Below are positions 15,808 to 37,668 of a DNA stretch of 37,668 nucleotides, in pieces (position 1 is the first letter of the stretch; each line of letters begins with the position of its first letter). Made by a program: the position numbers and the translations under genes. The stretch is from Candidatus Izemoplasma sp. (GTDB lineage: Bacteria; Bacillota_I; Bacilli_A; Izemoplasmatales; Izemoplasmataceae): the NCBI GenBank assembly GCA_007132465.1, contig SLOP01000040.1, positions 1-37,668 of the forward strand, in the 5' to 3' direction. Below the pieces are notes generated by a model that worked only from the letters and a program-made list of their open reading frames with translations, had not been told where the DNA came from and did not search any database.

Positions 15808-16908
15808 ATGGCTGAACTGCATTTTAAGTCCTTAAAGAAAATCTACGATGGCGGTGTTTTGGCTGTCGATGATTTTAACCTCAAGGTGAAGGATAAAGAG
15901 TTCATCGTTTTTGTCGGTCCCTCTGGGTGCGGTAAATCGACCACGTTACGCATGGTTGCGGGACTCGAAGAAATCACCGAAGGCGACTTGTATATCGATG
16001 AAAAACGCGTCAACCACATCCCGCCAAAAGACCGAGATATTGCCATGGTTTTCCAGTCGTATGCGCTATACCCTCACATGTCCGTGTATGACAACATGGC
16101 GTTTGGGTTAAAACTTCGACGGGTTCCGAAAGAAGACATCCGTGAACGCGTCAATAAAGCCGCCGATTTGCTCGGCATCAGCGAGTTGCTAAACCGCAAG
16201 CCCAAAGCGCTCTCAGGCGGACAACGCCAGCGCGTTGCCTTGGGTCGCGCCATCGTGCGCAACGCCAAAGTGTTTTTGATGGATGAACCGCTATCGAACC
16301 TCGATGCGAAGCTTCGTGTCAAAATGCGTGGCGAACTGATTAAACTGCACGCTCGCATTGAAACCACCACCATCTACGTCACCCATGACCAAAGCGAAGC
16401 CATGACCATGGCTGATCGCATCGTCGTCATGAACAAAGGGTACATTCAGCAAGTTGGCTCACCAAAAGAAATCTACGATAACCCCAACAACATGTTTGTC
16501 GGCGGGTTTATTGGCACGCCACCCATGAATTTCATCGAAGGCAAGGTCTCGCGCGACGGTGTGTTTGAAAACAAAGACATGAAAATCAAGATTCCCGGTG
16601 CACAACACAAAATCCTTAAAGACAACGACATGATTGAAAAACTTGTGGTCCTTGGCATCCGCCCTGAAGACATTCATGATGATAAGCGCCGCATCCAAGC
16701 GCATCCTGACATGGTTGTTGAGGTTCCTGTTGATGTCTCTGAGTTGCTCGGAAACGAAACCAACATCACCTCAACCATCAACGGCGCCAGCATCGTCGCA
16801 CGCATCGATGCCCGCACCGACATCAAACTTGGTGACACCCTTGACATGGTATTCGACACCAAAAAATCACACTTCTTCAACCCTGATACTGAAGAGCGCT
16901 TGGTTTAA
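15808..16908 (+). CDS. msmX: MsmX/UgpC-type sugar ABC transporter ATPase
   Basis: A 366-residue ATPase of the CUT1 carbohydrate importer group. Walker A is GPSGCGKST (37-45), Q-loop Gln83 in '[12 protein letters not shown]', signature LSGGQR (135-140), Walker B 'VFLMDEP' (155-161) and switch His193. From about 240 to the end is the OB-fold regulatory region ('[12 protein letters not shown]'). It stands alone, with its own -10 (TATAAT, 15773-15778), and ends at a terminator. Orphan ATPases of this type serve several importers. The right-hand operon contains two CUT1 permease pairs and no ATPase, so this protein is the likely motor for both. That link is inferred. Confidence 0.92.
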
Positions 16909-21234: not shown

Positions 21235-21936
21235 TCATTGATAGATCTTAATGTCTCGAACCTTGAAGTCTTGGGGAAAGCAGTCACCATCGACGATGCC
21301 GCCTAAGGTGCCACCAATCGCGAGGTTTATGATGAGGTAAAACGGTTGATCAAAAGGCCACCCTCTGGGCGAGGCATCACGACCCTGTTCACCACGGGTA
21401 TAGGTGGTCACTTTGTCGCCGTCGACTTCGTAGCGGATGGTGTCTTTTTCCCATCTAAGCGAGTAGGTACGAAACGTGTCAACCATGGGGTCGATCGTGA
21501 CGGTGTGATCGTATTGTTCTTGCACGCGATGGTTGTACTTCTCGGTGTGCAAGCAGGTGTAAAGTTTGTTGGGTTCATTACCGGTGTGTTCCATGATGTC
21601 GATCTCGCCGCTTTTTGGCCACCGCCCCTGGCGGCTCTCCTCGGGCATCATCCATAAAGCCGGCCACGTGCCTTTGCCGCCGGGGACGCTGGCGACGATG
21701 TCGATGCGTCCGTATTGAAAGCTGAATTTATGTTTGGTGTTAATGCGAGCACTCCGAATAACATCGCCCTCGCGCGTGGCGCGAATGACGAGCCCGTCGT
21801 CAAAAAAGAGGTTTTTTGGATCATCCACATAGTGTTGCACTTCATTGTTGGCCCATTTTTCACCAACCTCAACGTTCCATATGTCTCGATCAAGTGAACT
21901 CATGCGAGTAAAATCAAAATGTTTAATTAATGTCAT
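21235..21936 (-). CDS. Intracellular GH16 family beta-glucanase (laminarinase-like)
   Basis: A 233-residue, single-domain GH16 enzyme. The catalytic ExDxxE motif is 'SGEIDIMEHTG' (Glu111 nucleophile, Asp113, Glu116 acid/base). Other GH16 laminarinase blocks are 'GRIDIVASVPGGKGTWPALWMMP' and 'GWPFDQPFYLIINLAIGG'. It lacks a signal peptide and starts directly with the catalytic fold, so it should work in the cytoplasm, on imported beta-1,3-glucan oligosaccharides. Its start overlaps the lacI stop by 4 bp (ATGA). Most GH16 enzymes are secreted, so a cytoplasmic one beside a secreted one is notable. Last gene of the operon. Confidence 0.9.
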   Translation of the reverse strand: MTLIKHFDFTRMSSLDRDIWNVEVGEKWANNEVQHYVDDPKNLFFDDGLVIRATREGDVIRSARINTKHKFSFQYGRIDIVASVPGGKGTWPALWMMPEESRQGRWPKSGEIDIMEHTGNEPNKLYTCLHTEKYNHRVQEQYDHTVTIDPMVDTFRTYSLRWEKDTIRYEVDGDKVTTYTRGEQGRDASPRGWPFDQPFYLIINLAIGGTLGGIVDGDCFPQDFKVRDIKIYQ

Positions 21937-22967
21937 AGGCGCTCCTCGTCAGTTTTTAATACCCGTGTTGTGTCGCCGTTGATTAAATACGTGTCAACGG
22001 TGACGGTTTCGCCGTTCATGTCGACGTCGGGTCCGTCAATCATCTGCAACATTTTGCGTGCCGCGATTTCGCCCATCCGTCGTGCGTCTTGGCGTATCGT
22101 GGTCAACCTTGGTGTGATTAACTGGCCAAGGTCAATCCCGTCAAACCCGATGAGAGAGTAATCGTTGGGCACGGTTTTATCGGCTTCCCTAATCGCTTGC
22201 ATCGCACCGATCGCTTGCATGTCGGAGGCGCAGAACACCGCGGTGGGTTGATCGGTGAGCTCCAACACTTTTTTCATGGCGCGGTAGCCATCTTCTTTGG
22301 AGAAAAATTTCCCTGAAATGAGGTATTCATCTCGAACCGGAATGTTAAGCTTGTGCATTGCTTTTTCAAACGCCTCTAAGCGCGTGCCACCAATGAAGGT
22401 GGAGCGATCACCGTGTATATGAGCGATTTTTTTATGGCCGAGATCGTGTAAAAACCGCACGCCTTGCTGCATCCCTTGTTCATTGTTTGAGGTGATCGTC
22501 ACCGCGGTTTCCACCGAGTAGTCAATGATGACGACAGGCAGTGTCGACTGATACAACTCGCGCATTTCCTCGGTGTTAAAATCTTCGCAGAGCACCAAAA
22601 TACCTTCGACTTGTTTGCGCTTGGAATGCTCCAAGTATGAACCGTTTTGTTTACCCATGTTTTTCGCCAAAAACAGGATGTCGTATCCGTTGGCTTGGAC
22701 GGTGCTTCTGAAGCTTTCAAGGATTTTTGCAAACAACGGATGTTGCAAGCCGAGGTTGGTGATTTCTTCAAAAATAACGCCCATGGTGTTAGACCGCTGG
22801 GTCTTCAGCGATCGCGCTGAAGAGTTAGGCACATAACCCATGTCAGTGCACACTTTCAGCACGGTGGCACGGGTTTGGGGAGAGATGTCGTTGTAGTTAT
22901 TCAGCACTTTTGACACCGTCGCGACACTGCAACCGGCCCGCTTGGATATGTCTTTAATCGTGACCAT
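21933..22967 (-). CDS. LacI-family transcriptional regulator
   Basis: A 344-residue LacI/GalR repressor. Residues 2-55 are the DNA-binding domain with hinge ('VTIKDISKRAGCSVATVSKVLNNYNDISPQTRATVLKVCTDMGYVPNSSARSL'), followed by a periplasmic-binding-like effector domain ('GVIFEEITNLG', 'ASDMQAIGAMQAIRE', 'LIGFDGIDLGQLITPRLTTIRQD'). Upstream in-frame starts exist to 22994, but GGAGG is 6 nt before ATG 22967. The gene begins inside the end of the GH16 lipoprotein gene. Placed between the two glucanase genes, it probably senses a glucan-derived sugar and controls the operon. The operon promoter lies outside the window, so no operator is assigned. Confidence 0.92.
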   Translation of the reverse strand: MVTIKDISKRAGCSVATVSKVLNNYNDISPQTRATVLKVCTDMGYVPNSSARSLKTQRSNTMGVIFEEITNLGLQHPLFAKILESFRSTVQANGYDILFLAKNMGKQNGSYLEHSKRKQVEGILVLCEDFNTEEMRELYQSTLPVVIIDYSVETAVTITSNNEQGMQQGVRFLHDLGHKKIAHIHGDRSTFIGGTRLEAFEKAMHKLNIPVRDEYLISGKFFSKEDGYRAMKKVLELTDQPTAVFCASDMQAIGAMQAIREADKTVPNDYSLIGFDGIDLGQLITPRLTTIRQDARRMGEIAARKMLQMIDGPDVDMNGETVTVDTYLINGDTTRVLKTDEERL

Positions 22968-24660
22968 TGTCATCCTCCGTTCGTTCAAATTCAAAATAGT
23001 TTATCTCAAACCCTCCTACGTTGGCCACCAAGCGGAATGTGTAAACGCCTGCACGCCGGAAAAAGGGTTCGCTCGTGATCGTGACCCACCCGTCGGTGTC
23101 GGTGGGGATTGACGTGACTGCGTGAGGCAAGGCGCCCAAGGTTCGCAGGGCAATCTCTCCCCCGCTTTCGCTTCTCAGGCGATAGTGCACACGGTATGTG
23201 CCGTCTTCTTCGACTTCAAGCACATAGGCCATTTCATCGCCCGTGTCAATGGACGTGAGGTGACGCTCCCCATCGATATCATCGGTGAGGACGCTTATCA
23301 CGCCTTGCATGGTGGTGTAATCTTGCGCTTGAATGCGTTCAGTCACGGTTTGAATGCTTTCTGTTGATAAGAGGATGGATCGTGGCGGACCCGTTTGGCC
23401 TTTAAAATCAACGGGTTCGACGGTAATCACATAGTCGTTACCATGATCTAATCGATCAGCCGTGTAGGCATTTAGCGTCGTTTGACCGTGATAGACGTCA
23501 TTCACATACACGTTATAATGCGACACCATCACGTCATGATCGGCATGGTTCCATTTTAAACGGATGGCATCATGGGTGTTCCAAATCATTGTCATGCCGC
23601 TGACTTGAGAGGGCGCATCGTCGGTCATGCCAGCGTAATCTTTTTGATAAACGCGCACGTACTTTACTTCCATGCTTTGGGGGAAGATGCTGTCGTCCAC
23701 GCCGTGTGCGCCTCCCCAATCACCGCCAACCGCGAGGTTGAGGATCAGGTGAAACGGTTGATCAAAAGGCCATGCGTCGGGGTTGGACACGTGAGTGTTA
23801 AAGTTAGGGTTGTAACCGAAAACAGCAAACTGCTCCCCATCGATAAGCAACCGAATGCTTCGAGGTTCCCATATCATTTCGTACACATGAAACGCATCTT
23901 CAACCGTGGGGACAACGCGAGAATACCCAATCTGTGTGCCAAGTTGGTGGTTGTAAGCGCCGGTGTGAATCGTGCCGTGAACCACACCGGGCTGATAACC
24001 TACGTACTCCATGATGTCGATTTCACCGCTGTATGGCCAGTTGCCATACCGCCATTCGGTCGGCAACATCCAAATAGCTGGCCATAGGCCACGGCCGCTA
24101 GGCATCCGCGCTTTCACTTGAATGCGTGCATACTCCCAATCACCATAATATTTCGTCACGAGGCGCGCGGACGTATAGTCGTTGCCCTGATGTGATTCTT
24201 TCAACGCGCGAATATGCAACACACCGTCTTCAATGAAAACGTTGTTGAGGTTCGCGCTCGTGTAAAACTGCAGCTCGTTGTTCCCCCATCCATGTCCACC
24301 GACGTCATACGCCCATCGATCAGAACTGGGTAAGCCGTCTTCGTCGAACTCATCGCACCATACCGGCTGCCAATCGTCAATGTTGTCCAGATAAGCACAC
24401 CGTTCGGGAACCAAGGCCCGTTCATCAACATCTTCTGTCTCCGTTGGGACGGGAGTCACAGAAGGATCTGGCGTCAGCGTGGGGTCTGGCGAAAGCGTGG
24501 GGTCTGGTGAAAGCGTGGGGCCTGGCGAAAGCGTGGGGTCTGGCGAAAGCGTGGGGTCTGGTGAAAGCGTGGGATCCGGGGTCTTATCATCGACACGCCC
24601 ACATGATGCAAGCGTGAAAACGAGTGTCAACGCGGTGATGAATGTAAGCCGTTTTATCAT
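22954..24660 (-). CDS. GH16 beta-glucanase lipoprotein with FN3-like and CBM6-like domains
   Basis: A 568-residue secreted, membrane-anchored glucanase. Lipobox LASC (Cys20). Residues 27-72 are a Pro-rich linker of PDPTLS repeats. The GH16 domain is about 88-345, with catalytic 'SGEIDIMEYVG' (Glu213, Asp215, Glu218) and laminarinase-type 'MPSGRGLWPAIWMLPTE'. Then an FN3-like domain (about 355-440; 'AIRLKWNHADHD...YNVYVNDV...YVITVEPVDFKGQTG') and a CBM6/35-like domain (about 445-560; 'IQAQDYTTMQGVI', 'YTFRLVANVGGFEINYFEFE'). It should cut beta-1,3-glucan at the cell surface and supply oligosaccharides to the adjacent importers. It starts 5 bp after the permease stop. Confidence 0.92.
   Translation of the reverse strand: MIKRLTFITALTLVFTLASCGRVDDKTPDPTLSPDPTLSPDPTLSPGPTLSPDPTLSPDPTLTPDPSVTPVPTETEDVDERALVPERCAYLDNIDDWQPVWCDEFDEDGLPSSDRWAYDVGGHGWGNNELQFYTSANLNNVFIEDGVLHIRALKESHQGNDYTSARLVTKYYGDWEYARIQVKARMPSGRGLWPAIWMLPTEWRYGNWPYSGEIDIMEYVGYQPGVVHGTIHTGAYNHQLGTQIGYSRVVPTVEDAFHVYEMIWEPRSIRLLIDGEQFAVFGYNPNFNTHVSNPDAWPFDQPFHLILNLAVGGDWGGAHGVDDSIFPQSMEVKYVRVYQKDYAGMTDDAPSQVSGMTMIWNTHDAIRLKWNHADHDVMVSHYNVYVNDVYHGQTTLNAYTADRLDHGNDYVITVEPVDFKGQTGPPRSILLSTESIQTVTERIQAQDYTTMQGVISVLTDDIDGERHLTSIDTGDEMAYVLEVEEDGTYRVHYRLRSESGGEIALRTLGALPHAVTSIPTDTDGWVTITSEPFFRRAGVYTFRLVANVGGFEINYFEFERTEDDNGHD
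24472..24579. repeat. 18-bp repeats coding a PDPTLS linker
   Basis: Six near-identical 18-bp units (plus strand GTGGGGTCTGGCGAAAGC and variants) encode PDPTLS/PGPTLS hexapeptides between the lipid anchor and the GH16 domain. Few substitutions separate the copies. Confidence 0.9.
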
Positions 24661-24665
24661 TGTTA

Positions 24666-25685
24666 TTACTCTCCTGTTATGCCCGTTTTGTCAATGCTTT
24701 CGACAAAGAAGCGTTGGGTAAAGAAATACAGCACTAACAGCGGCAAGATCGCTAGCAAGTTCCCCGCCATTCTTGATGATTGAATCAGTTCGCGGGCCGG
24801 ACTGCCCACCGGGAATAGCGCATCGTATTGCGCGAAAAACTGCTCGACGCGAAGCGGTAAGGTCATCAATAACCAGTCACCGGTGGGTTCAGTGGAAACG
24901 CGATAGCCGAGGAAAATACCACTCACGTACGTCTCATTATAATACCATACAAAACTGAATAAAAACACGATAATAATGGCTGGCACGGCCAACGGCACGG
25001 CGATTTTTGTGAAGACTTGCCAAGGCGATGCGCCATCGAGTTGTGCCGATTCTTCGAGGCTTTTAGGAATCATGCGGAAGAACGAATAGAAAATGAGGAT
25101 GTATATTGCGCCGTTGAATCCTTGACCGAGAATCGCGGGATAGATAAACGCTCGAACGCTGCCTAAAAGTCCGTAGTTCGCATACATTCGGAACGTCGGA
25201 ATCATCGTAATCTGTGGCGGCACGATAAACGTCAAAATCATCAACACCATGAGGGTGCGCTTGAACGGAAAGCGATACTTCGCAAATCCATACCCAATCA
25301 GCGCACTTGAGACGGTGGCCGCCAGGGCAGGAAAGAACGCAAGCATGAGTGCTTCACGCAAAGCCCGAGGATAGTTAATAGCTTCCCATACCAAGCGGTA
25401 GTTATCCCAGTTTAGGGAAGAGGGAATCCAACGCACGTTGGCACTGACGAGGTCTGACATGGACATAAAACTGGTGATGACCATGTAAAACACCGGGTAC
25501 AGATAGATGTACCCTAAACTGATTAACAAAGCATGAATGACAAATTTATACACAAAACCGTCGGTCATTTTCATGCCGAACAAAAAGTGTTTGACGTTAT
25601 CTTTCGTTAACGTCTTGACACATCGTGTCACGGTGTTTTTGGCTGCCACGAGAAAGGCGCGGATTCGCGTGAGGAAATGCTTCAT
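24666..25685 (-). CDS. CUT1 sugar ABC transporter permease, MalG/AraQ type (pair 2)
   Basis: A 339-residue permease. After a positively charged N-terminal tail of about 45 residues come six membrane segments, with the EAA coupling loop 'EESAQLDGASPWQVFTKIAVPLAVPAI'. A longer loop near the end ('YRVSTEPTGDWLLMTLPLRVEQFFAQYDALFPVGSPARELIQSSRM') is typical of the oligosaccharide group. The start is ATG 25685, with GGGAGG upstream, overlapping the partner's stop (ATGA); an upstream extension to 25763 is inside the partner gene without ribosome-site support. Together with the 25682-26698 product it forms one channel; no ATPase gene is nearby. Confidence 0.92.
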   Translation of the reverse strand: MKHFLTRIRAFLVAAKNTVTRCVKTLTKDNVKHFLFGMKMTDGFVYKFVIHALLISLGYIYLYPVFYMVITSFMSMSDLVSANVRWIPSSLNWDNYRLVWEAINYPRALREALMLAFFPALAATVSSALIGYGFAKYRFPFKRTLMVLMILTFIVPPQITMIPTFRMYANYGLLGSVRAFIYPAILGQGFNGAIYILIFYSFFRMIPKSLEESAQLDGASPWQVFTKIAVPLAVPAIIIVFLFSFVWYYNETYVSGIFLGYRVSTEPTGDWLLMTLPLRVEQFFAQYDALFPVGSPARELIQSSRMAGNLLAILPLLVLYFFTQRFFVESIDKTGITGE

Positions 25686-26698
25686 TGTTTTAGCCTCCCT
25701 CGAAGTGAAATGATGCCGATGAATATGCCGATGATGATGGCCATCACCAGGAAGTAGATCCAAGCCATGGTGGCGCTGTAGCCGTATCCCGTGGTCAGAT
25801 CAGAGGTCGCCAACCCATACATGGTGTGTCTGATGTAAACGACGACGGCATTCAAGCTAAAGACGCTCATCGAGACCACGGTGTAGATGATTGACACGGC
25901 AATCAAAGGCATGATTGATGGCAGGGTAATCTTCCAAAACGATTCCCACGGGCTTGCGCCATCAATTTGAGCGGCTTCGTAAATAGATTTATCAATTTTC
26001 TGTAAACCGGCAAGTAAAATGAGAATCTGGATGCCAGCAAACCAAAGCACCAAGAGTATTTGCTCAAAGAGCGCTTGCAGGGGGTTTGATAAAAACGTGC
26101 CGATGTTGTTTAGGATCATGTCGATGAACGTGTAGTTGGCAATCGATGGTAATGTCGTCGCACCTTGGTTCATTAACTCGGCAATGACCGGGCCTGATGA
26201 GATGATGACGGGCAAGAAGAAAATCGTCCGCCACACGCCACGCCCGCGCACGTTTTGGTTAATTAACATGGCGATAATAAGCGCAAACACGATGGTAACA
26301 GGAACGTTAAGAATCAACTCCAACGTATAGTTAACAAGCACGTCAACGAAGTATGGATCTTGTAAAAACGCGGCTTGATAGTTACCGATGCCAACGAACT
26401 CAAGTCGTAGCGCGCGCCCGTCCAAAAACACGTTGAAAAAACTCAAGTATAACGTGTAAAAGACCGGGTAAAGCGCAAACACCAAATACCCGATAATCCA
26501 CAACAGGATAAACGCGAGACCAACCACACTCTCACGGCGTCGGTTGGTGATGGCGACGTTAATTTTACCAAAAATAACGAGGTCGGTGTGGGTCGAGCGC
26601 AACAAACGATTATGTGTCAGTCGGTAGATTACTTTGTCTTTAAAGGGCAAGTACGTCTGATAATAAAACCGACCGATGGTAGCGAGGAGGTTCTTCAT
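25682..26698 (-). CDS. CUT1 sugar ABC transporter permease, MalF/UgpA type (pair 2)
   Basis: A 338-residue permease with about seven membrane segments. The EAA loop is 'SIYEAAQIDGASPWESFWKITLPSIMPLI'. An N-terminal soluble stretch of about 55 residues precedes the first helix, and a large external loop ('PVIAELMNQGATTLPSIANYTFIDMILNNIG') lies in the middle. It overlaps the DUF5696 gene's stop by 3 bases and has GGAGGGC ahead of ATG 26698. No binding protein is encoded directly beside this pair. It may share one of the two upstream binding proteins or use the DUF5696 protein. Confidence 0.92.
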   Translation of the reverse strand: MKNLLATIGRFYYQTYLPFKDKVIYRLTHNRLLRSTHTDLVIFGKINVAITNRRRESVVGLAFILLWIIGYLVFALYPVFYTLYLSFFNVFLDGRALRLEFVGIGNYQAAFLQDPYFVDVLVNYTLELILNVPVTIVFALIIAMLINQNVRGRGVWRTIFFLPVIISSGPVIAELMNQGATTLPSIANYTFIDMILNNIGTFLSNPLQALFEQILLVLWFAGIQILILLAGLQKIDKSIYEAAQIDGASPWESFWKITLPSIMPLIAVSIIYTVVSMSVFSLNAVVVYIRHTMYGLATSDLTTGYGYSATMAWIYFLVMAIIIGIFIGIISLRGRLKQ

Positions 26699-29061
26699 CA
26701 GGGTTGCCCTCCTTTCACGCGGTAAGAGAGCGCTGAGACAACATCACCGTTTACCGTTGTCTCTTGATGCGTGTAGTTGATGATGATTTCAACGTTGTTG
26801 GTGTAGGTTACCTTGACGACACCAGGATTAATAACCTCACGCGCGACAATGGTCTCACCATGCGTGAACCGCAATGCTTCGTTAATGAAGCGATATTGTT
26901 CAATGATGGTCTCAGACCATGCGTCAAACTGCGTGGCATAATACCGTTCAATGTCGGTGCCAGCGAGATTACTCGAGCGCGCTTTCGTCAGCACGTAAGA
27001 TGGGTAGATGCCAAAATCCACAAGCATCAGCAGTTGCATCGTGCCAAGGCTGTTGAAGTTCAGAAATTGACTGTAGAGATTCATGTGCCCACGTAACACG
27101 ATGGGCAAAAACGGCACCAAATCATCAAAGTAGTTAAGTTGCGAATTATACAACGGCGCATCGAAAAATTCCGTTGTGTAGGGGTAGGCGTATGCGTTGG
27201 GGTAGCGGTAATGCCCTCTACCCTCATAGCGCGCCATGATGCTTTCGTAGAAAGGAAGCGCCGCCGAGCGAGGATAAGCTTGTCGATCGTAGTATGAGAA
27301 AAGTGTCGAACCAAGCATCTCGAAAAGCACGTCAACTCCGCGCGAATGGTATCGATCATAATCATCTAAAGCCAAGTTCATGGAATGTTCAGGATAGAGG
27401 AGATAACTGCGGGTGTGCACGCAATCGATGCACAGGTGCTCTAAACGGAAACGGTTCACGCCTTGAGCAACGTCGCTGCGCACAGAGATTCTTCGGGCGT
27501 CAGCGCCGGCTCGAACGTAGTTGTTGACGAGCATGACCGAGTTTGCTTCGTTGATGTGTGCAATCAAATCATCAAAATTGGCCTCGCCTCGTAAGCGCCG
27601 TTCAACGGTGAGGGCGCTTGGCAAGTTGCCGCTATAACCGCCGCGATTCCATCCCAACAAGGATACGCGCTGATTGATTAAGCCAGCTATCATGAAGTGG
27701 TCGTACATTGCCATCACATCATCAACACTTGTCATCTCCACAAGGCTTTTACCAATGAACTGGCTCTTTGAGTCCGCCATTAAATACTGAAGATGTATAG
27801 GGATGTCATCCACCTCGGCCAGCTGTCTGGTAATGTCGCCTTGATCGCGTAAATACGCTTGGTAGTGATTGGCCATACCGACGTAATCGGCTGCGTCGTC
27901 ACGGAGAAAATCAAAACGAATGGTGAAGTCATCGTCGCTGAGTTGATAGGTTCGTTGCGCCCCACCGCTGCCATCGCTTTGAAAACTTTGAGTGTAGACC
28001 GACATAATATCATACTTTGTGAAGATTAAGTTGTGGTTTTGGTTGCCCACGCCGTTAGGAAAGGCAATCAATCGCGAGCTTGGCGCGCCCGATTCAATAA
28101 TGCCGAGAAACGCATGTTGGTGCACGCCATGCACCGCCCCAAAGACTGGCATCGACAACGGGTAATTCGTCACGGATTGGCGAATCGTGCTAACGCCCGC
28201 GTTTGGTCCGTAGAATCGTTCGTCATAGAAGTTGCTGTAGCGACCCTGGTTGTCGGTGTAACGTATCAACGCCCCAACCCCATCAGGAATAAACATGTAC
28301 CCCGGGATATCATCCATCCGAGTGGCACCCATCGCCGGGAAAACGATGAAACTCGACAGACGGAACTCGTCGCGGTTTTCACTGATGCCGTTGAAAGGAA
28401 TGTGCGCACGAATGCCTTCATCGGTGAGGCTCACGATGAGCTGAAACTCAAAAGACAATTCGGTGTATCCATGCTCAATCATACGATCGAGATCAATTTC
28501 GCCCTCGAGGTATCGAGGAAAGTTCAGCCTGCAAACCGCTCTGGCACAAAAGCCACCCACATAGATGTCTAAGATGATGTCATTATCCTGGATAGTCATG
28601 TCGTATGTGAACACGGTATCGGTAATGCCAATGTTGCGGCGCAAATTCATGTTCCGATCGACTTCAATGTATTCGAAGCCAATGCCGCTTTGTAAAAGTT
28701 TGGTGAATGATTCAGTGTCGGCTTCCGGACGATGAATCGATGTGCTCCAAACATATCCGCTTGCTTTATCAAGCACTTTAAACGCAAGCGTCGTCTGGTT
28801 CATGTACAGTTCATAATGGTCGTTTTCAAGCATGAAGGTATCGGCTCGAACGATGTCGATGTAATCATCTGGATCGACAGGCCGCATGTCCTCAGGCTGC
28901 GTGAAGCGCGATGAATCAATCAAGGCGTTGTCAATAAACGGATTAATTTCATCGCTCGACGCGTTGCGCGGGTACGATGGGTCCGAGGCGGTGTAGACCA
29001 CAGAGGTGAGCAAGACAACTAAACCGGCGATGACGCCGCATTTTTTAAGGATGGAAGACAC
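26698..29061 (-). CDS. DUF5696-family exported protein
   Basis: A 787-residue protein, start GTG 29061 with GGAGGTG 7 nt upstream. Residues 9-25 form a signal peptide or anchor; no lipobox. The body matches, from memory, the DUF5696 family of large extracytoplasmic proteins in Bacillota sugar loci ('HYELYMNQTTLAFKVLDKASGYVWSTS', 'YMFIPDGVGALIRYTDNQGRYSNFYDERFYGPN', 'GWNRGGYSGNLPSAL'). The central part, with many aromatic and acidic residues, could be a glycosidase-like barrel, but I see no named catalytic motif. It lies between the Yip1-like gene and the second permease pair, overlapping both. It may bind, cut or feed glucan chains to that permease pair. Confidence 0.7.
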   Translation of the reverse strand: MSSILKKCGVIAGLVVLLTSVVYTASDPSYPRNASSDEINPFIDNALIDSSRFTQPEDMRPVDPDDYIDIVRADTFMLENDHYELYMNQTTLAFKVLDKASGYVWSTSIHRPEADTESFTKLLQSGIGFEYIEVDRNMNLRRNIGITDTVFTYDMTIQDNDIILDIYVGGFCARAVCRLNFPRYLEGEIDLDRMIEHGYTELSFEFQLIVSLTDEGIRAHIPFNGISENRDEFRLSSFIVFPAMGATRMDDIPGYMFIPDGVGALIRYTDNQGRYSNFYDERFYGPNAGVSTIRQSVTNYPLSMPVFGAVHGVHQHAFLGIIESGAPSSRLIAFPNGVGNQNHNLIFTKYDIMSVYTQSFQSDGSGGAQRTYQLSDDDFTIRFDFLRDDAADYVGMANHYQAYLRDQGDITRQLAEVDDIPIHLQYLMADSKSQFIGKSLVEMTSVDDVMAMYDHFMIAGLINQRVSLLGWNRGGYSGNLPSALTVERRLRGEANFDDLIAHINEANSVMLVNNYVRAGADARRISVRSDVAQGVNRFRLEHLCIDCVHTRSYLLYPEHSMNLALDDYDRYHSRGVDVLFEMLGSTLFSYYDRQAYPRSAALPFYESIMARYEGRGHYRYPNAYAYPYTTEFFDAPLYNSQLNYFDDLVPFLPIVLRGHMNLYSQFLNFNSLGTMQLLMLVDFGIYPSYVLTKARSSNLAGTDIERYYATQFDAWSETIIEQYRFINEALRFTHGETIVAREVINPGVVKVTYTNNVEIIINYTHQETTVNGDVVSALSYRVKGGQP

Positions 29062-31087
29062 GGTAATACACCTCCAAGGTTAAGTCTTGTAACAACACGA
29101 ACAGTTCGTTGAGCAACACGTAAACAATCACGACGCCAAGCAACAGCATCACCATGGTGAACGCCGAGATAAGCAGGCTTGAGAACGTTTCTTTCACGGT
29201 GTAAAAGTGCGTCTCTTTCACCATGAAAAAGAAATAGATCGCGGTCATTAGGATGCTGAGGCCTTGAATGAATGTGATTAGAAAGGCTTCATTATACGTG
29301 AGTCCGTTCGACATGATGGCGAGCACCGGCAACACTATGAAAAATGGCGCTAAGGCGTAGATGGTTGTCGTGTACACATCGCGCAGACGTCCTTCACCTT
29401 CGCGAATGGAGCCGACGAGGAAGTTGCAGCCAACCCAAAGCAAGATGGGTAAAAACACTTTAATCACTTCTTCAACCATGTTGATGTCAGCTAGACGGCG
29501 AGGGTTAAACAAGAAGTTGAGGTTGTAAATATAATACACATAACATAGGAAGTAAATCATCAGTAACACGGTCGCAGAGAAGGTGCTGACGCGGTTTTTT
29601 CGCTTTATAAAGTACGAGGCATCCGCAGGGTTTTTGAGGTAGGTGAACACATACAGTATCTCATCAAATGTTTTGGATTTATCCCGGCCCAGACGCACGG
29701 CTTTTTTTACCGGACTCATGATGTAGGGCATAAATTTCACTTTAATGTTAATGGTTAACGCAATCAAAACCACGAAGAGCGCCGCAATGATGGAGCCAAC
29801 GTTGGCTAAGAGCCATGCGTTTCGGACCTCCCAAAACGCATCGCTGTATCCGTCGCGATCGCTGGCAATATAAAACTCCTCAAGCGCTTCATCATACTGT
29901 CCTAAGCTGTAGTAAGCGTTGCCAAGTCCTCGGTGGGCGAGGTCAAAGAAGTCGTTCATTTTTAGCACGCGTTCCCACGGCTCTTGGCTTGCAACATAAT
30001 CACCGTCTTGATACTGTTCGAGCGCAGTATGAACTAGGTTAGTGAATTCGGTTGGATAGAAGATTTTCATCTCTTCCGATAGCCGATCCAACACGTATAC
30101 ATTGAAAGCGCTATCCACGGCAATGGCTGAGGGCGTGTTGAAGAGCCCTTGCACTACGTTGCTGCCATCTTGGCCACCAAACATGAAAAGCAGGTTTCCT
30201 TCAATGTCATACTCAAAGATGTAGCCTGAGGCGGTTACAACGTATATATTGCCAATCGGTCCCACGAAAACATCAACCAAATCGCGGGCGTTGAACATGG
30301 AAGGGAGGACGTTTCCACCGCTTAAGTTTAGCCGCTTCACGCCAACGCCCTCAACACCGCTGCTGACAGTGTGAATCAGGCCACGGTTGTCGATGGCCAT
30401 GTTGGTTATTTCCGCGGGAATGACATTGAATAGGCGAGCGCGCTGTTCTTCGGTGAAAAACGTTTGTTGCAAGATGGTGCGCAACGTCGGCTGCACGGTG
30501 TTTGTGCCAAAATAGCCTAAAAACTCACCATCGTGACTGAACTGAGCTAACCCGCGCACGCCAAGGTTCAAAATATACACATTGCCTCGTGTGTCGGCAA
30601 TAATCTTTCTCGGACGAAAGTCACCGGCACCAAACAACGGTGAATCCGGTCGGGTAAATGTTTGAAGGATGTCACCGTCAGGTGAAAGGTGGTACGCGAT
30701 GTTGTTGCCGTGATCGGCGACGTATATCTCACCGCGCTTGTTAGCGAAGACACCGAAGGGTTCCTGAAGAAAGTCGGTGCCGAGGACGCGCACATCGTCT
30801 GTGTTCATGTTGTAGACGATGATTTTACCATAGGTTCGTTCCGGATTTTGCGTCGCAATGTAGATGATGTCGTTTGCGTCGATGTGAATGTCACGCGGCC
30901 TAACCAACGCATGGCCGCCAATCTCGTTGATGGTTGCGATGGGGACGTAAGCTGTCTGGGTGCGAACAAGACGGTTTTCGCTCATGGTGAACGTGTGGTA
31001 ACGAACCCCTGTCTCGGCCCTCACGTCGGTGCCGACGACGAGAATGGCAATCGTTAGAATGCATAGCAACCAAAGGAGTCGCTTCAT
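29045..31087 (-). CDS. NHL-propeller / TPR / Yip1-like membrane protein
   Basis: A 680-residue multidomain protein. Residues 1-24 are a signal peptide. About 40-345 is an NHL-type beta-propeller with repeated 'RPRDIHIDANDIIYIATQ', 'PFGVFANKRGEIYVADHGNN', 'PRKIIADTRGNVYILN' and 'PSAIAVDSAFNVYVLDR' blades. About 355-415 are TPR-like helices ('AHRGLGNAYYSLGQYDEALEEFYIA'). After a membrane helix near 425-445, a cytoplasmic stretch leads into a five- to six-helix Yip1-type membrane domain (about 500-670). The propeller should face outside. It sits between two permease pairs and overlaps both neighbours by a few bases. A scaffold or sensor for the importer is a reasonable guess; no activity is known to me. 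Confidence 0.8.
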   Translation of the reverse strand: MKRLLWLLCILTIAILVVGTDVRAETGVRYHTFTMSENRLVRTQTAYVPIATINEIGGHALVRPRDIHIDANDIIYIATQNPERTYGKIIVYNMNTDDVRVLGTDFLQEPFGVFANKRGEIYVADHGNNIAYHLSPDGDILQTFTRPDSPLFGAGDFRPRKIIADTRGNVYILNLGVRGLAQFSHDGEFLGYFGTNTVQPTLRTILQQTFFTEEQRARLFNVIPAEITNMAIDNRGLIHTVSSGVEGVGVKRLNLSGGNVLPSMFNARDLVDVFVGPIGNIYVVTASGYIFEYDIEGNLLFMFGGQDGSNVVQGLFNTPSAIAVDSAFNVYVLDRLSEEMKIFYPTEFTNLVHTALEQYQDGDYVASQEPWERVLKMNDFFDLAHRGLGNAYYSLGQYDEALEEFYIASDRDGYSDAFWEVRNAWLLANVGSIIAALFVVLIALTINIKVKFMPYIMSPVKKAVRLGRDKSKTFDEILYVFTYLKNPADASYFIKRKNRVSTFSATVLLMIYFLCYVYYIYNLNFLFNPRRLADINMVEEVIKVFLPILLWVGCNFLVGSIREGEGRLRDVYTTTIYALAPFFIVLPVLAIMSNGLTYNEAFLITFIQGLSILMTAIYFFFMVKETHFYTVKETFSSLLISAFTMVMLLLGVVIVYVLLNELFVLLQDLTLEVYYRVFHP

Positions 31088-31980
31088 TATTTAATCCCCG
31101 AATGGGCCATGGTGTTCATGACCTTAGATTGCAGGAATAAAAACATGAGAATGTTCGGCACAAACATAATCAAGCTTGCCGCCGCCAGCATGCCTTGCCC
31201 CGCCACGGGATTGCCTCCCGCTGGCGTGCCAACAAGGGCCGCTAAAGTCTGGAAGTAAAACGACAAGGTCTTCATTTCTTCTTGGTCGATGTATAACGTC
31301 GGCCCGACCACGTCGTTCCAAATCAGTTGGAACGACAAAATGCCGACAGTCGCAATCGCCGGCGCAATGATCGGCATGATGACTTTAAGGAAAATCTGCA
31401 TTTCACTCGCGCCGTCAATCTTTGCCGCTTCAATGACTTCATTAGGCGTTTGGTCGATGAACTGCTTCATCAAAAACAAGCCCACAGGAATCGCAATCAA
31501 CGGTAAAATCAATACCGCGTAACTGTCGATCATCCCCAGCCGTGCGATGGTTAAATACCGTGGTATCATCACGGCAATGGGCACAAACATCAGCGCCAAA
31601 GTGTTAATTTCAAACAGCAACTTCTTGCCTTTAAACTTAAGTTTTGACAAGCCATAGGCCGCCAGTGATGTCACCAGAATGCTTAAAAAGACACCGATGC
31701 CCGTCACAAGCAAACTGTTGAACAAATAACGACTGAAAGGAATGCCTGACTCCGCGGCTAAATCAATGAGGTTGCGGAAATTTTGCAAAGTGGGCACGCG
31801 CACGAAAAAGCGCGGCGGGTAGGCAAAGAGTTCGTTCATCGGCTTAAAAGCGTGGCTCACGATGAACAAAATCGGCAAAGCCATAAACAGTGCCATCGGC
31901 AATAAAATGATGTAAAACTTCAACTGGCTACGATGGAATCGTTTTGGATTAATTTTCATCCCGCTAAAACTTTTAGCCAT
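31087..31980 (-). CDS. CUT1 sugar ABC transporter permease, MalG type (pair 1)
   Basis: A 297-residue permease with six membrane segments: 'KFYIILLPMALFMALPILFIVSHAFKP' first, and the EAA loop 'VIEAAKIDGASEMQIFLKVIMPIIAPAI'. The ending 'GTPAGGNPVAGQGMLAAASLIMFVPNILMFLFLQ' is typical of inner subunits of CUT1 importers. GGGGTGAG precedes ATG 31980. It partners with the 31985-32875 product, 4 bp away, and its stop touches the Yip1-like gene's start (TAATG). Confidence 0.93.
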   Translation of the reverse strand: MAKSFSGMKINPKRFHRSQLKFYIILLPMALFMALPILFIVSHAFKPMNELFAYPPRFFVRVPTLQNFRNLIDLAAESGIPFSRYLFNSLLVTGIGVFLSILVTSLAAYGLSKLKFKGKKLLFEINTLALMFVPIAVMIPRYLTIARLGMIDSYAVLILPLIAIPVGLFLMKQFIDQTPNEVIEAAKIDGASEMQIFLKVIMPIIAPAIATVGILSFQLIWNDVVGPTLYIDQEEMKTLSFYFQTLAALVGTPAGGNPVAGQGMLAAASLIMFVPNILMFLFLQSKVMNTMAHSGIK

Positions 31981-31984
31981 CGTC

Positions 31985-32875
31985 TCACCCCTTATCCTTA
32001 TCGCCGAGCAGATTAAAGGTCATTTTACTGATCATGTATATCATGATGAGCAAGATGACACTCACCGCGGAGGCATAGCCCATCAGGTATCGGATAAAAC
32101 CGAAGTCTTCAATGTGGTTAACCATTAACTGACCAGCATATTGTGGCGTTGGGTTGGCACCTGATAACTGCACACCAATCGCACCGACTTGGAAAGTTCC
32201 AACCACCGCCATGACCGCACCGAACAACATCTGTGGTTTCATCGACGGTATCGTGATGTAAAAAATCTCTTGCCAGCGGTTTTTCACGCCGTCCATGTAC
32301 GCCGCTTCGTAAAGTGTCTGATCAATGTTCATGATGCCGGCGAGCATCGCTAAAAACCCGACCCCCATGCTGCTCCAAAGCGACACGACAATCATGATGT
32401 TCATGAGGTGTTGTGGCGAGGTCAAAAACTGAATCGGCTCGCTGATCATTCCCCAGTTCATGAGGGTTGCGTTGATGTAGCCGGTTTGGTCACCGCTGAA
32501 CATGACCGTCCAGACAACCGCCATGGCAATGCCGGCTGTCATTGATGGGCTGTAGAGAATGATGGCGAAAATGGTTCGTGAACGATGCGGAATTTGCGCG
32601 AGCACCCACGCCAATATGAAACTCATCAAGTACCCCACAGGTCCTACGATAAAAGCAAACTTAATGGTGTTTGGCAAGACGTGCTGCATGAACACATCGT
32701 CGCGTGTTAACAGCTCGATGTAGTTACGTAACCCGATGTATTCGGGGCTTTGGATGGTATTAAAATAGGTGAAGGAAAGCGCGATGGCCATCACCACGGG
32801 CACGATGATGAAGACAACGAACAAGAGCACGTATGGGGTCAAAAACCACCACGGAGAATTCATTTTTCTAGTCAT
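31985..32875 (-). CDS. CUT1 sugar ABC transporter permease, MalF type (pair 1)
   Basis: A 296-residue permease with six membrane segments; the EAA loop is '[30 protein letters not shown]'. Two ATGs compete: 32881 is 1 nt from the AAAGGAG (32883-32889), while 32875 has a 7-nt spacer and is chosen. It begins within the last codons of the large binding-protein gene, so their translation is coupled. This makes the pair 1 channel the natural partner of that binding protein. Confidence 0.93.
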
Positions 32876-35825
32876 CGTCATGCTCCTTTAACCAATAATC
32901 AATCGTGTGGATGGTTGGAACGAGATAGGGTCGTAACGACACCCCGTCCTCGGCGTAGCCAAATTCCTCCATGCGATAGATAATCTCTCGGTTGGCGATG
33001 CGTACGGCCGTATCTAGTGCGATGCGTGGGTTTGCGTCGTTAAAAACGATTTTATTCCAAGCGTTGGATAACTCACGCTCAACCATGTATGTACCAGGAA
33101 TGCGCGATGCTTCCAGGGCGAACTCCCACTGAGTTAAGATAATGTCAACGTGTTCTTCTGGCAAAGGGATTTGCGCAAACGCTTCCAGGTTGGCGGTGTT
33201 CCAAAGAAATTCCGTTCCATACGTCGTTTGCAGACGCGTTGCGAAATTCACCTGGGTATCGGTCGACATCCACCACTCGAGGAACTGCCACGACTCATTA
33301 GGCATTTTGGTGTCTGCGAGAATCATCATCGATTGCGCGCCGCTTGCAGCCCAACGTTCGACGTCACCGTGCACATTGCGCACGCCAGGATGCGGGGCGA
33401 TTTCCCACTGCCCGGCAATTTCAGGAGCGGCCACAGTCAACTGCAAATAGGTCGCGAGGTCGCTTACGCCAATGGGCAAAAGGCCCGTCCGGAAATGGTT
33501 ATAGAAGTTGGGCGCTTGTTTCGGTAGGTTATAAATCGTGAACAAATCACTCATGAGGCGAATGCCTTCGAGGTTTTCTTCTGTGTTTAGCGTTGTCTGC
33601 ATACCATCATCGCTATAAAGATCTCCACCAAACTGGTATATGAACGGGATGGTGGCGACAAACGGCTTAAACCCACCGAACATCGCAAGTGGGTGGTAGA
33701 AGTTCATGCCAAAACGTTGAAGCTCTGGCAAAATCTCTATGACGTCATCCCATGTATCCGGCACTGGCAAATTAAGCGACTCAAAAATATCGGTGCGGTA
33801 GAACGTCACCCAGAAGTTTTGTGTCAGCGGCATGCCGTACATGCCATCTTCAAAGGCGTAGGGAATCATCACACCCGGTGCAAAGTTGGCGACAGTGTCG
33901 GCATAACCAGGGAATTGACGTAAATCCATGCTGGCGCCTCGAATGGCAAATTCGTAAGGAATCCAGTGGTTGACCCCGAGCGCCACATCAGGCGCGCGGT
34001 TGGCCGCGCTCGCTAAGATTAGTTTGTTTTCATCCGGCATGAGCGAAAGTTGAACGGGGATGCCGGTTTGGGCGGTAAACTCACTGTCGATAATCTGTTG
34101 CATGATTTCAACGTAAGGTCTTGGGTAGTTGACCCATATTTCAATCGTGTCGGCGCCGACCTCGCCAGTCGAATAATCGTCGATAAAAAACGAAAGGAAA
34201 AAGCGTTGCACGCCTTCGCTGGCTCGTACAAACATGTTCGGTCGTGTGCGCGGGGGCGTGGGGTCTCCACCGACGTATATGTGCTCGAGGTCGAGCCCGT
34301 TTTCCAAAAAGATTTGTGCCATGGTGCCAAGCAATTGCGCCGTCGACGCGTCGCCGTCGGCAAGCAGCTGCATGCGGTTGGGGATGTTGTTGACGTTATC
34401 GGCAAGTCGCTGTAGTTGATCGATGGCCAAACTGAGGTTGGTCAGCTCACCAGGACTGTGGTGCTCACTGTACGTTGATAACCCTTCGTGGACATGCTTG
34501 AGCGTCTCAATCCAGCGGGCAAGCCGGTCATGAATGTCGGGAATGCGTGTTTCCAGACGCCATGTCCGGTAGCGATCTTGAGTGTTTCCGGTCAACCGAC
34601 GGATTTCCAAACTTAAGTCCGTCATTTCACTCATCAGTTGAATGACATGTTCGTAGGCGTTGCGGTATGGTTCGAGCACCACGCGCATCGAGAAGGTGTT
34701 TACGCCTTCGTCTAAATATATTTTATATGGGTTCTCTCCGTCACCCAGCATCATGGTGGTGTAGGTGTTGCTAAAGTGGAAGGGCACCATGCGAAGGGTG
34801 TCAAAGGGAACGTCGCCGTTCACGCGAATTTCACGGAACACCGGCATCTGCATCAGGTAGTTTTGTCGGTAGTTGATGCCAATGTGGTAAAACCCGGCAG
34901 TCTCGACGTCGATTTCATAAGTGATGGTGTTATTTCCATGACGAAAACTCCAGCCGTCAATGGCATTGAGCCTGAGCGAGCGTGTGTCGTAGGACGTAGC
35001 ACCCGGGTTGCGTTCGCTTCGTAAGCGGGTGGAAGGACTGGTTTTAGACACAAACGTTTCGGCACCCAAGATGAGGTTGGCGTCGTGTTGCAACTCGGCC
35101 CCTTCGTGTAGGGCAAGGTACTCATCATATGTCTGGTGCGTTCGTGGGCTTTTTAGCCATAGGCTTCCAATCAAGAGCTCACCTCGACGGTGAACAAGTT
35201 CAATGGTGTTAGCGCCGGCGTCAAGTAAAAACGTCAGCGGTTCGGCGTTGAGCGCCGTTGCGTCATAAAAAGACGAGCGTATAAACGCATCGTGTTTGAC
35301 AGAATTCGGAAGAATTTCATTGCCGTAACGATCACGGGTAAAAGTATCGGTCGCGAAACGCCATTCGGTCAGCAAATCAATGGAGTGGCTTTCTTCGAAT
35401 TGGTAGGCGCCGTTAATTTTGACGCTCAAACGGTTGGTCAGGATGCTTGTGCCGATGTCAAGATAATCAAGCGATAATCGGTAGGCACCGGCCTCATCGA
35501 TGGTCACATTCAAGGTGATAACATCCCCGCGTTCAAAACGGCGCACATCGCCGTCATATCCGTATGCTGCGCCATCAGTGATGTCGCCGCCCATGGCGGT
35601 GGCCGGAATCTCAACCGCCACATCCGTTGGGGCATCGACATCCCATGCGCTGCGAACGTGATGATAATGATTGTCAAATGCGTCTGAGGGGCGGATGATG
35701 TTCGGGTCAACCGCTGCAATGGTTTCTGCTTTTCGATCATCGCTGATGACCCAAATCAAAGCCAATAGTGCAATCAATCCGAAAAGGATATGCCTCGCTT
35801 TCATCCTGCGTAACAGTCGTTGCAT
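32868..35825 (-). CDS. Large membrane-anchored solute-binding protein with two CBM-like domains
   Basis: A 985-residue protein, about twice the usual binding-protein size. Residues 10-28 form an uncleaved-looking membrane anchor without lipobox. Two beta-rich modules follow (about 50-230 and 245-410), both with CBM6/35-like traits ('[16 protein letters not shown]...[13 protein letters not shown]', '[34 protein letters not shown]...[13 protein letters not shown]'). Next is a helical stretch (about 415-515), then a SBP_bac_1-type domain (about 555-985; '[37 protein letters not shown]', '[32 protein letters not shown]'). It probably holds polymer chains near the permease. ATG 35825 is chosen, 6 nt after GAGGTG. 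Confidence 0.85.
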
Positions 35826-35847
35826 GCGCATCACCTCGTCATGATTT

Positions 35848-35887: not shown

Positions 35888-37435
35888 TTAATCGCCTTGT
35901 TCCTCTTCTTGATTGCCTTGTTCTTCTTCTATGAGATCTTCAAGATCATCAAGATCCATCTCAATAAACTCGTTGATTCGCTCTTCCCAGTCGATGGCAA
36001 ACTGTTCAGGGGATAATTCACCGGCAAATATGGCGTCCCAATCGTAGTTTAAGCCAACCCACTCCCAGAACTGGCTATAGCCTGAGAGCCATTTATCGAC
36101 GTCTGGTTTTGAGTATTCGAGCAAATCAATGCTCTGACGCAAGCCATACACGTTGTCGATGAAATCTTCGGCTGCGTCCCATACTTCTGGATAGTCGGCG
36201 ATGGGGTAGCGGTCGAGGTACAGATCGTCACGCTCTTTCATTAAATCGAGGCGGATAAGCCACCCTTCTTTACCGAACGTCATCCATTTAGCAAGCAGAT
36301 ATGCTTCATAGGGATTTTCTGTCTGTGATGAAACCCCGGCAAAATCGAGAATCGTCGGCGGGAACTGTCCGGCCGCGCCGCCAGGGTAAGGCCAGAAGCC
36401 AACATCTTGCCCGTAATCTTCCCACATCCAATCAATCATAAACATCATCCAAGAACCGTCGATGTTAAAGGCGACATGGCCGGCAAGCCATGGCCACACA
36501 TCACCAAGGATGTCCATTTCTTCTTCCGTGAAGCTCGCAATGACATGTTGTTGGTAAAGATCGATCTTTGCGTTGTAAGCGTCAATCCACGCTTGTGATG
36601 TAAAATTAAACTTCTCACCATCAAATGTTTGATACCCTACATCAACAAAATCTTGCGTGGGCCAAATCGCTTCAAAATCAAGGTCTCCAAACCACGGTTC
36701 GATACCATAGATAATGTCAGCTTGACCTGCTTGACGGACCTGAATCGCTAAATCTACAAACTCGTCATACGTCCAATCAAAGGGAGGAATAGGAATAAGC
36801 AAGTCTTCGAGCAATGTGATGTTGATGTAGATACCTTTAATGAACTGGAACGTTGGAATCGCAAGCCGCTCACCATTATAGACGGCGGTGGTGGCAATGT
36901 TAGGATACACAAAACTGGTATCTGGATCGGCGTCCCAAAACTCAGAAATGTCAAGCATCAGACCATTAGAAACCCCTGTAGGGACATTGTCAATCGCAAA
37001 GACATCAGGTAAAACTCCAGCCGCTTGGGCATTTAGCAGGCTTTCTGTAAAGGCCCCACCCGTGCCGGTGATGTCACGACGAAGTTGAACCGTGATGTTT
37101 GGGTATCTTTCCATGAAGGCATTGATTAACAACTGATTCAACTCCTGGTCGCCCCAGTCTGCATACGAAAGCACTATGTTGCGGGTTTGACCGTTGGAGG
37201 GCTCATCCTCTGTCGGTGTTGGATCTGGTGGGGTTTCACCTGGTAGGGTTGCATCCGGCGTGGTTTCCTCCGGTGTCGTTCCAACCGGTGGGGTTTCCTC
37301 CGGTGTCGTCGCATCTGGCGTGGTCTCATCTGGTGTGGTAACAATGGTTTCAATCGGATCGAGGGTAGCGCCATCGCACGCCGCAATCACGACACCAAAC
37401 ATCAACAACAGGCCGAACAACAGTAATTTTCTCAT
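35888..37435 (-). CDS. CUT1 sugar-binding lipoprotein
   Basis: A 515-residue extracellular solute-binding protein. Lipobox IAAC (Cys20) is followed by a Thr/Pro/Glu linker (about 26-78) of TTPDA/TTPEE-like repeats. The SBP_bac_1-type domain begins 'RNIVLSYADWGDQELNQLLINAFMERYPNITVQLRRDI' and continues with 'GVLPDVFAIDNVPTG', 'AIPTFQFIKGIYINITLLEDL' and 'VAFNIDGSWMMFM'. Many Trp/Tyr residues suit stacking on sugars. The C-terminus is a very acidic tail (about 30 residues, 'DLDDLEDLIEEEQ...'), unusual for a binding protein. AAAGGAGC precedes ATG 37435. Hairpins flank the gene on both sides, which should favour high, independent amounts of this product. Confidence 0.92.
   Translation of the reverse strand: MRKLLLFGLLLMFGVVIAACDGATLDPIETIVTTPDETTPDATTPEETPPVGTTPEETTPDATLPGETPPDPTPTEDEPSNGQTRNIVLSYADWGDQELNQLLINAFMERYPNITVQLRRDITGTGGAFTESLLNAQAAGVLPDVFAIDNVPTGVSNGLMLDISEFWDADPDTSFVYPNIATTAVYNGERLAIPTFQFIKGIYINITLLEDLLIPIPPFDWTYDEFVDLAIQVRQAGQADIIYGIEPWFGDLDFEAIWPTQDFVDVGYQTFDGEKFNFTSQAWIDAYNAKIDLYQQHVIASFTEEEMDILGDVWPWLAGHVAFNIDGSWMMFMIDWMWEDYGQDVGFWPYPGGAAGQFPPTILDFAGVSSQTENPYEAYLLAKWMTFGKEGWLIRLDLMKERDDLYLDRYPIADYPEVWDAAEDFIDNVYGLRQSIDLLEYSKPDVDKWLSGYSQFWEWVGLNYDWDAIFAGELSPEQFAIDWEERINEFIEMDLDDLEDLIEEEQGNQEEEQGD
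37202..37360. repeat. Degenerate 15-bp repeats coding a Thr/Pro/Glu linker
   Basis: Short degenerate units (plus strand such as TCCGGTGTCGTTCCA and relatives) encode TTPEE, TTPDA and PPVGT-like pentapeptides, forming a flexible stalk between the lipid anchor and the binding domain. Confidence 0.7.
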
Positions 37436-37526: not shown

Positions 37527-37668
37527 TTATTCGATGGCATCAAAGGTGCCGTTCACGATTAACTCGGCGTCGACAAACTCATCGACGTCAACTTCCACTT
37601 CAATCAAGACGTTGTCAAGGACAAAGTGTTGCGGTCCTGCTTCGCCGGCAAATAATAGGCCCATCTCA
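37527..37668 (-). CDS. C-terminus of a carbohydrate-binding-module-like protein (partial, start beyond right edge)
   Basis: The last 47 codons of a minus-strand gene, ending TAA at 37527. 'MGLLFAGEAGPQHFVLDNVLIEVEV' looks like the final strands of a CBM4/9- or CBM6-type jelly roll (the 'F..DNV.I' ending). After an acidic connector, 'AELIVNGTFDAIE' resembles the first strand of another CBM4/9 module, after which the protein stops. It is probably the preceding gene of the same operon and, from context, an exported glucan-binding or glucan-degrading protein. Confidence 0.7.
   Translation of the reverse strand, partial: EMGLLFAGEAGPQHFVLDNVLIEVEVDVDEFVDAELIVNGTFDAIE

Follow-up and report, generated by a model that had tools for sequence, protein, structure and literature searches.

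An NHL-TPR-Yip1 membrane protein as a candidate accessory subunit in a conserved double glycan importer of the CUT1 type

The NHL-TPR-Yip1 protein encoded in the window (the whole stretch of 37,668 nucleotides analysed here, from a contig of Candidatus Izemoplasma sp.) is a fixed member of a seven-piece sugar-import gene set that many bacteria of the Gram-positive type have in common, and is thus probably a working part of an unusual double importer. On balance we favour a reading in which the protein is an accessory subunit, obligate and non-catalytic, of a conserved double glycan ABC importer of the CUT1 type and acts in assembly. Its membership in the transporter is argued by the constant gene order, the joint presence with DUF5696 and the precedent of YknW; that it is a physical subunit, with contacts and an assembly role of its own, is what we infer. 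In the mechanism proposed here, the NHL propeller and TPR helices would face the outside and dock onto the other tethered proteins of the surface (the CBM-fused SBP and/or DUF5696), the Yip1 domain would lie in the membrane beside the permeases and hold or time the assembly of the complex, as YknW does for YknXYZ, and the energy would come from the shared UgpC-type ATPase.

Table 1. Features of the window discussed in the text, with the evidence for each
Feature	Position	Strand	Evidence
NHL-TPR-Yip1 protein (P0001), 680 aa	29045..31087	minus	ATG at 31087; Pfam, family scan, AlphaFold2
Signal peptide, residues 1-24	31016..31087	minus	hydropathy peak at residues 4-22; helix 2-17 in model; AxA-like end (...DVRA|ETG) by eye
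Extracellular NHL propeller, residues 32-345	30053..30994	minus	Pfam NHL; model strands; Foldseek to NHL domains
TPR helices, residues 347-410, outside, ahead of TM1	29858..30049	minus	Pfam TPR; model
TM1, residues 426-450	29738..29812	minus	hydropathy; ends of split ORFs
Yip1 domain, residues 484-651, five TM helices, cytoplasmic GEG loop	29135..29638	minus	Pfam; model
Cassette SBP1, membrane-anchored, CBM35-like N-terminal part	32868..35834	minus	Pfam SBP_bac_1 E 1e-20; CBM_35 just below cut-off
Cassette permease P1a	31985..32881	minus	Pfam BPD_transp_1
Cassette permease P1b; 1-nt overlap with NHL-TPR-Yip1 gene (TAATG)	31087..31980	minus	Pfam BPD_transp_1
Cassette DUF5696, membrane-anchored, GH129-like fold	26698..29061	minus	Pfam DUF5696 8e-142; model; Foldseek; profile
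Cassette permease P2a	25682..26698	minus	Pfam BPD_transp_1
Cassette permease P2b	24666..25685	minus	Pfam BPD_transp_1
SBP2, lipoprotein-like	35888..37435	minus	similar ORFs beside many, not all, cassettes; function class inferred
Secreted GH16 with Fn3 and CBM6 (cargo enzyme)	22954..24660	minus	Pfam
GH16, no signal peptide seen (cargo enzyme)	21235..21936	minus	Pfam
LacI-type regulator	21933..22994	minus	Pfam
UgpC/MsmK-type ATPase, likely shared energiser	15808..16908	plus	NCBIfam UgpC subfamily, 488 bits against a cut-off of 432

The original prediction had read a signal peptide, an outside NHL propeller, TPR and Yip1 in one 680-residue chain exported from within a sugar-import operon, and the open reading frame, Pfam, the family scan and AlphaFold2 agreed with it on the chain, as did the surrounding genes on the setting (Table 1). 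In the window copy the NHL profile of Pfam scored 23.1 bits (cut-off 20), TPR_16 scored 25 bits, under its cut-off of 32.7, and Yip1 (PF04893) 18.6 bits, under its cut-off of 28.6, with residues 484-651 spanning nearly the whole Yip1 profile. The two calls below cut-off were accepted because the family-level scan of 40 full-length members, that is the window copy and 39 relatives, found the same domains: Yip1 was matched by all 40 (best 4e-13; Pfam scan), TPR_2 by 31 of them, and NHL (PF01436) again by all 40 (best 3.5e-16). The Yip1 proteins of the split form described below also matched in 12 of 12 cases, the Butyrivibrio one with 50.4 bits, above the cut-off, and a chance match to Yip1 was ruled out by these 52 matches among 52 scanned family members.

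The structure prediction of the protein alone, for which the original prediction had called, gave a confident AlphaFold2 model on the family alignment (pLDDT 86.2 and pTM 0.70 for the 680-aa chain), in which the signal helix is followed by the propeller (32-345), the TPR (347-408 in the model), a long helix including TM1 (411-450), cytoplasmic linker helices and five more TM helices. Between TM1 and the Yip1 domain runs a linker of some 50 residues with 13 K/R vs 4 D/E, which is what an inside loop should show and supports a predicted topology with the N-terminus of the Yip1 domain in the cytoplasm and five TM helices after the linker. For the Yip1 part, Foldseek gave no useful match among the top 50 listed, all of which were propeller matches, and a PDB sequence search with the split Yip1 proteins returned nothing meaningful. 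The protein is the sole Yip1-type match of its genome. The Yip1 domain is best known from vesicle-traffic proteins, a link raised at the outset that contributes nothing to the interpretation here.

The genes of the window are arranged as SBP2 - SBP1(CBM) - P1a - P1b - NHL-TPR-Yip1 - DUF5696 - P2a - P2b - GH16/CBM6 - LacI - GH16, so that the gene under study lies, as first described, between permease pair 1 and the block of DUF5696 and pair 2. The cassette genes overlap or almost touch, the junctions other than that of P1b being a 17-nt overlap into DUF5696, TGATG into P2a and ATGA into P2b. A scan for promoters gave matches no more frequent than chance, and SBP2 had no match in NCBIfam. The window holds what defines a CUT1 importer, namely SBP, BPD permeases with EAA-type loops (read by eye in all four) and a MalK-type ATPase; OB_MalK has two matches in the genome, of which one is the UgpC ATPase at 15808-16908, and a missing ATPase was thereby ruled out. 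The cassette resembles the CUT1-type importers served by a shared MsmK/UgpC ATPase in its SBP, paired permeases and an ATPase encoded apart from the permeases, but differs from the usual ones in having two permease pairs together with a constant NHL-TPR-Yip1 protein and DUF5696.

To see the cassette across genomes, relatives were taken from 101 kin genomes and 392 genomes of the wider group, along with a named genome collection and records of plasmids and phages, and 94 loci were read with models built on the proteins of the window together with related ones. The order CBM-fused SBP - P1a - P1b - NHL-TPR-Yip1 - DUF5696 - P2a - P2b was the same in all 94 as far as the contigs reach. The complete seven-member set was present in 67 loci (44 fused, 23 split), two further loci differ only by a gene fusion of P2a and P2b, and one is decayed. 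The carriers belong to Bacilli and Clostridia, with Izemoplasmatales and relatives, Paenibacillus and Butyrivibrio among them. A search of the literature, with subscription titles largely outside its reach, returned no paper on DUF5696, on NHL repeats with Yip1, or on Yip1 with polysaccharide utilisation and ABC transporters; as far as the accessible literature shows, the cassette has not been described as a system.

The fusion in one chain turned out to be one of two states in a widespread family and no singular event, and a one-off fusion or assembly error was ruled out by the 44 complete fused loci in many families. In the split form two adjacent genes encode NHL-TPR-TM (mostly about 500 aa) and then Yip1 (about 210-280 aa). 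The first of them stops just past TM1, so the join falls on the cytoplasmic side and the topology is the same in both forms. A permease tree of P1a, P1b and P2b from 59 loci separated a fused side from a split side with one re-fusion (L127) within the latter, which needs two changes; the placement of Paenibacillus and Butyrivibrio in it is unsure owing to long branches. Should the fused side not be ancestral, these two modules would have been fused on more than one occasion, an argument for their acting together.

NHL-Yip1 and DUF5696 also occurred together. Among the 392 genomes the NHL-Yip1 protein was found in 47 and a strong DUF5696 in 48, with both in 47 (hypergeometric 3e-60, kinship between genomes not being corrected for), and the NHL-Yip1 gene or genes lay directly upstream of DUF5696 in 93 of 96 DUF5696 hits, counting also the loci beyond the first three per genome, the other three being two at contig ends and one decayed. 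The only genome having DUF5696 without NHL-Yip1 (G020) carries the decayed cassette L123 (G020:C3:130000-149500), in the middle of a 199-kb contig, where SBP1, P1a, P1b, NHL-Yip1 and part of DUF5696 were lost together, a GH30 gene upstream has replaced the lost genes, and a shortened DUF5696, P2a-P2b and GH16 genes are kept. The conserved operon position as such can also arise from shared regulation alone.

The predicted model of DUF5696 (pLDDT 89.1, pTM 0.89) matched GH129 first in Foldseek (E 4e-31), then GH101 and GH36, and the DUF5696 profile found GH129 sequences at E 7e-7; the GH129 activities matched were 3,6-anhydro-D-galactosidase and alpha-N-acetylgalactosaminidase. A D/E in all 26 rows of the DUF5696 alignment occurred at no barrel column except 682, which lies in a helix, as read from the columns of this alignment and the model, and the protein appears to be devoid of conserved catalytic acids. 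As none of the likely catalytic places of the barrel holds an acidic residue throughout, we predict DUF5696 to be a glycan-binding relative of an enzyme, likely a membrane-anchored dead glycosidase.

To ask which partner the protein follows, trees were compared after removal of the shared history. The known pairs P1a-P1b and P2a-P2b ranked high and SBP followed P1, while NHL and Yip1 followed DUF5696 and P2 somewhat more than P1, a weak signal; the partial tree correlation with P1 was no higher than with P2 or DUF5696. The test is a weak one, since NHL vs Yip1 gave a partial correlation of zero though they form one chain in most loci. These trees hint that NHL-TPR-Yip1 is tied less closely to pair 1 than to the half with DUF5696 and pair 2. 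A bridge or assembly factor had been foreseen in the original prediction, of which the membership in the transporter is supported, while the bridge is unproven as the tree hint fits the pair-2 half equally or better. As a special case of the accessory subunit, a strict bridge in which Yip1 joins the P1 and P2 pairs into one four-permease complex would explain why the gene lies between the two pairs in every complete locus, but with SBP on the side of P1 and NHL, Yip1 and DUF5696 more on that of P2 we hold it to be rather unlikely. Equally speculative is the wider picture of one membrane machine with two permease pairs, where Yip1 would be the scaffold and the dead DUF5696 and the NHL propeller would guide long glycans from the CBM-fused SBP into the channels, as a functional Gram-positive counterpart of SusCD-type capture. 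The mean distance of the Yip1 domain was 1.15 within the fused set vs 0.5-0.6 for the P1 permeases, and this faster divergence, unlike what a tight fixed interface would give, counts against the subunit reading.

The NHL sequences diverge almost as fast as the CBM part, as is expected if the substrate varies, and this agrees with a surface glycan receptor, where a lectin-like NHL propeller would capture polysaccharide and hand it to SBP with Yip1 mainly as an anchor. The confident propeller fold and the sharing of a cassette with CBM-SBP and GH129-like DUF5696 beside many glycosidases also speak for such a receptor, but an anchor would not need a five-TM domain, which every copy has and which the split clade encodes as a separate gene, since the NHL protein of the split form already brings a TM helix itself, and no lectin was among the best NHL structure matches listed by Foldseek; we regard a receptor as possible but unlikely.

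Those matches were TRIM/Thin NHL domains and the extracellular domain of M. tuberculosis PknD, which likewise carries an extracellular NHL propeller on a TM helix but is a kinase devoid of TPR and Yip1. In PknD the NHL domain is believed to act as the sensor of the kinase. A PknD-like transmembrane sensor of glycan or envelope state signalling via Yip1 would suit this match and the basic cytoplasmic linker, yet the protein has no signalling domain inside, and the cassettes carry ordinary regulators that vary by locus (LacI in the window; in Butyrivibrio a histidine kinase with a response regulator), by which regulation is already covered; a sensor is therefore quite improbable.

For the accessory subunit that we prefer, the nearest precedent is YknW of the Bacillus YknWXYZ system, likewise a membrane protein of the Yip1 family whose operon holds ABC-transporter genes, the likeness being judged by Pfam family and descriptions. 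To our knowledge, YknW has neither propeller nor TPR. It further differs in the four TM segments described for it (PMC4338810), and YknYZ, which comes with a membrane fusion protein, is an exporter of the MacB-like kind, another ABC type than the CUT1 sugar importer. YknW modulates the assembly of YknXYZ, and the activity of YknYZ strictly depends on YknX and YknW (PMC4887032; see also PMC4338810); against our reading, fourth components according to a review modify activity and are typically not required (PMC4338810). If our reading is true, this would be a second Yip1-family protein working with an ABC transporter, now in an importer, and would bear on the function of Yip1 outside eukaryotes.

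The same architecture is fused in Paenibacillus cellulosilyticus (WP_174812422.1, a 'YIP1 family protein' next to DUF5696, with 30% identity across 99% of the protein), in the same cassette with ugpC upstream; its name is automatic, it has no assigned function, and no paper on it was found. Butyrivibrio fibrisolvens has the same modules in the same cassette place as two genes, WP_167562697.1 ('NHL repeat-containing protein') and WP_073386912.1 ('YIP1 family protein'). Proteins that databases list simply as 'YIP1 family protein' or 'DUF5696' thus become parts of a defined system of seven members whose role can be tested; the system spans Paenibacillus, Butyrivibrio, a human-gut contig and Izemoplasmatales and has culturable carriers. 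The human-gut contig (L151, MT835587.1), filed as 'Bacteriophage sp.' from human faeces, holds the whole split cassette and is probably a mislabelled bacterial contig.

The enzymes beside the cassette vary, with GH16 in the window and close kin and GH3, GH13, GH35-like, GH43, glucoamylase-like, GHL10, NamZ and phosphodiester glycosidase elsewhere. A constant core with varied enzymes signifies that the protein serves the machine and not one sugar, and the system is not tied to the glucan named earlier, as the same core also adjoins GH3, GH13, GH35, GH43 and other enzymes. Genes of GHL10, NamZ or phosphodiester glycosidase adjoin the cassettes L083, L090, L091, L125, L127 and L130, a hint that the substrates there may be glycans of the cell wall or of exopolysaccharides.

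Among the permeases, P2a-P2b was a single double permease of 617-631 aa in L064:12824-14674 and L068:4827-6719, and P2a of L147:11853-14639 had an extra N-terminal part of about 530 residues. For P2b of the window the listed start TTG 25763 is probably wrong, and ATG 25685 gives a 4-nt overlap with P2a. Upstream of SBP2, positions 37530-37668 (minus) hold the 3' part of a further gene that runs off the contig and apparently encodes the tail end of a secreted protein.
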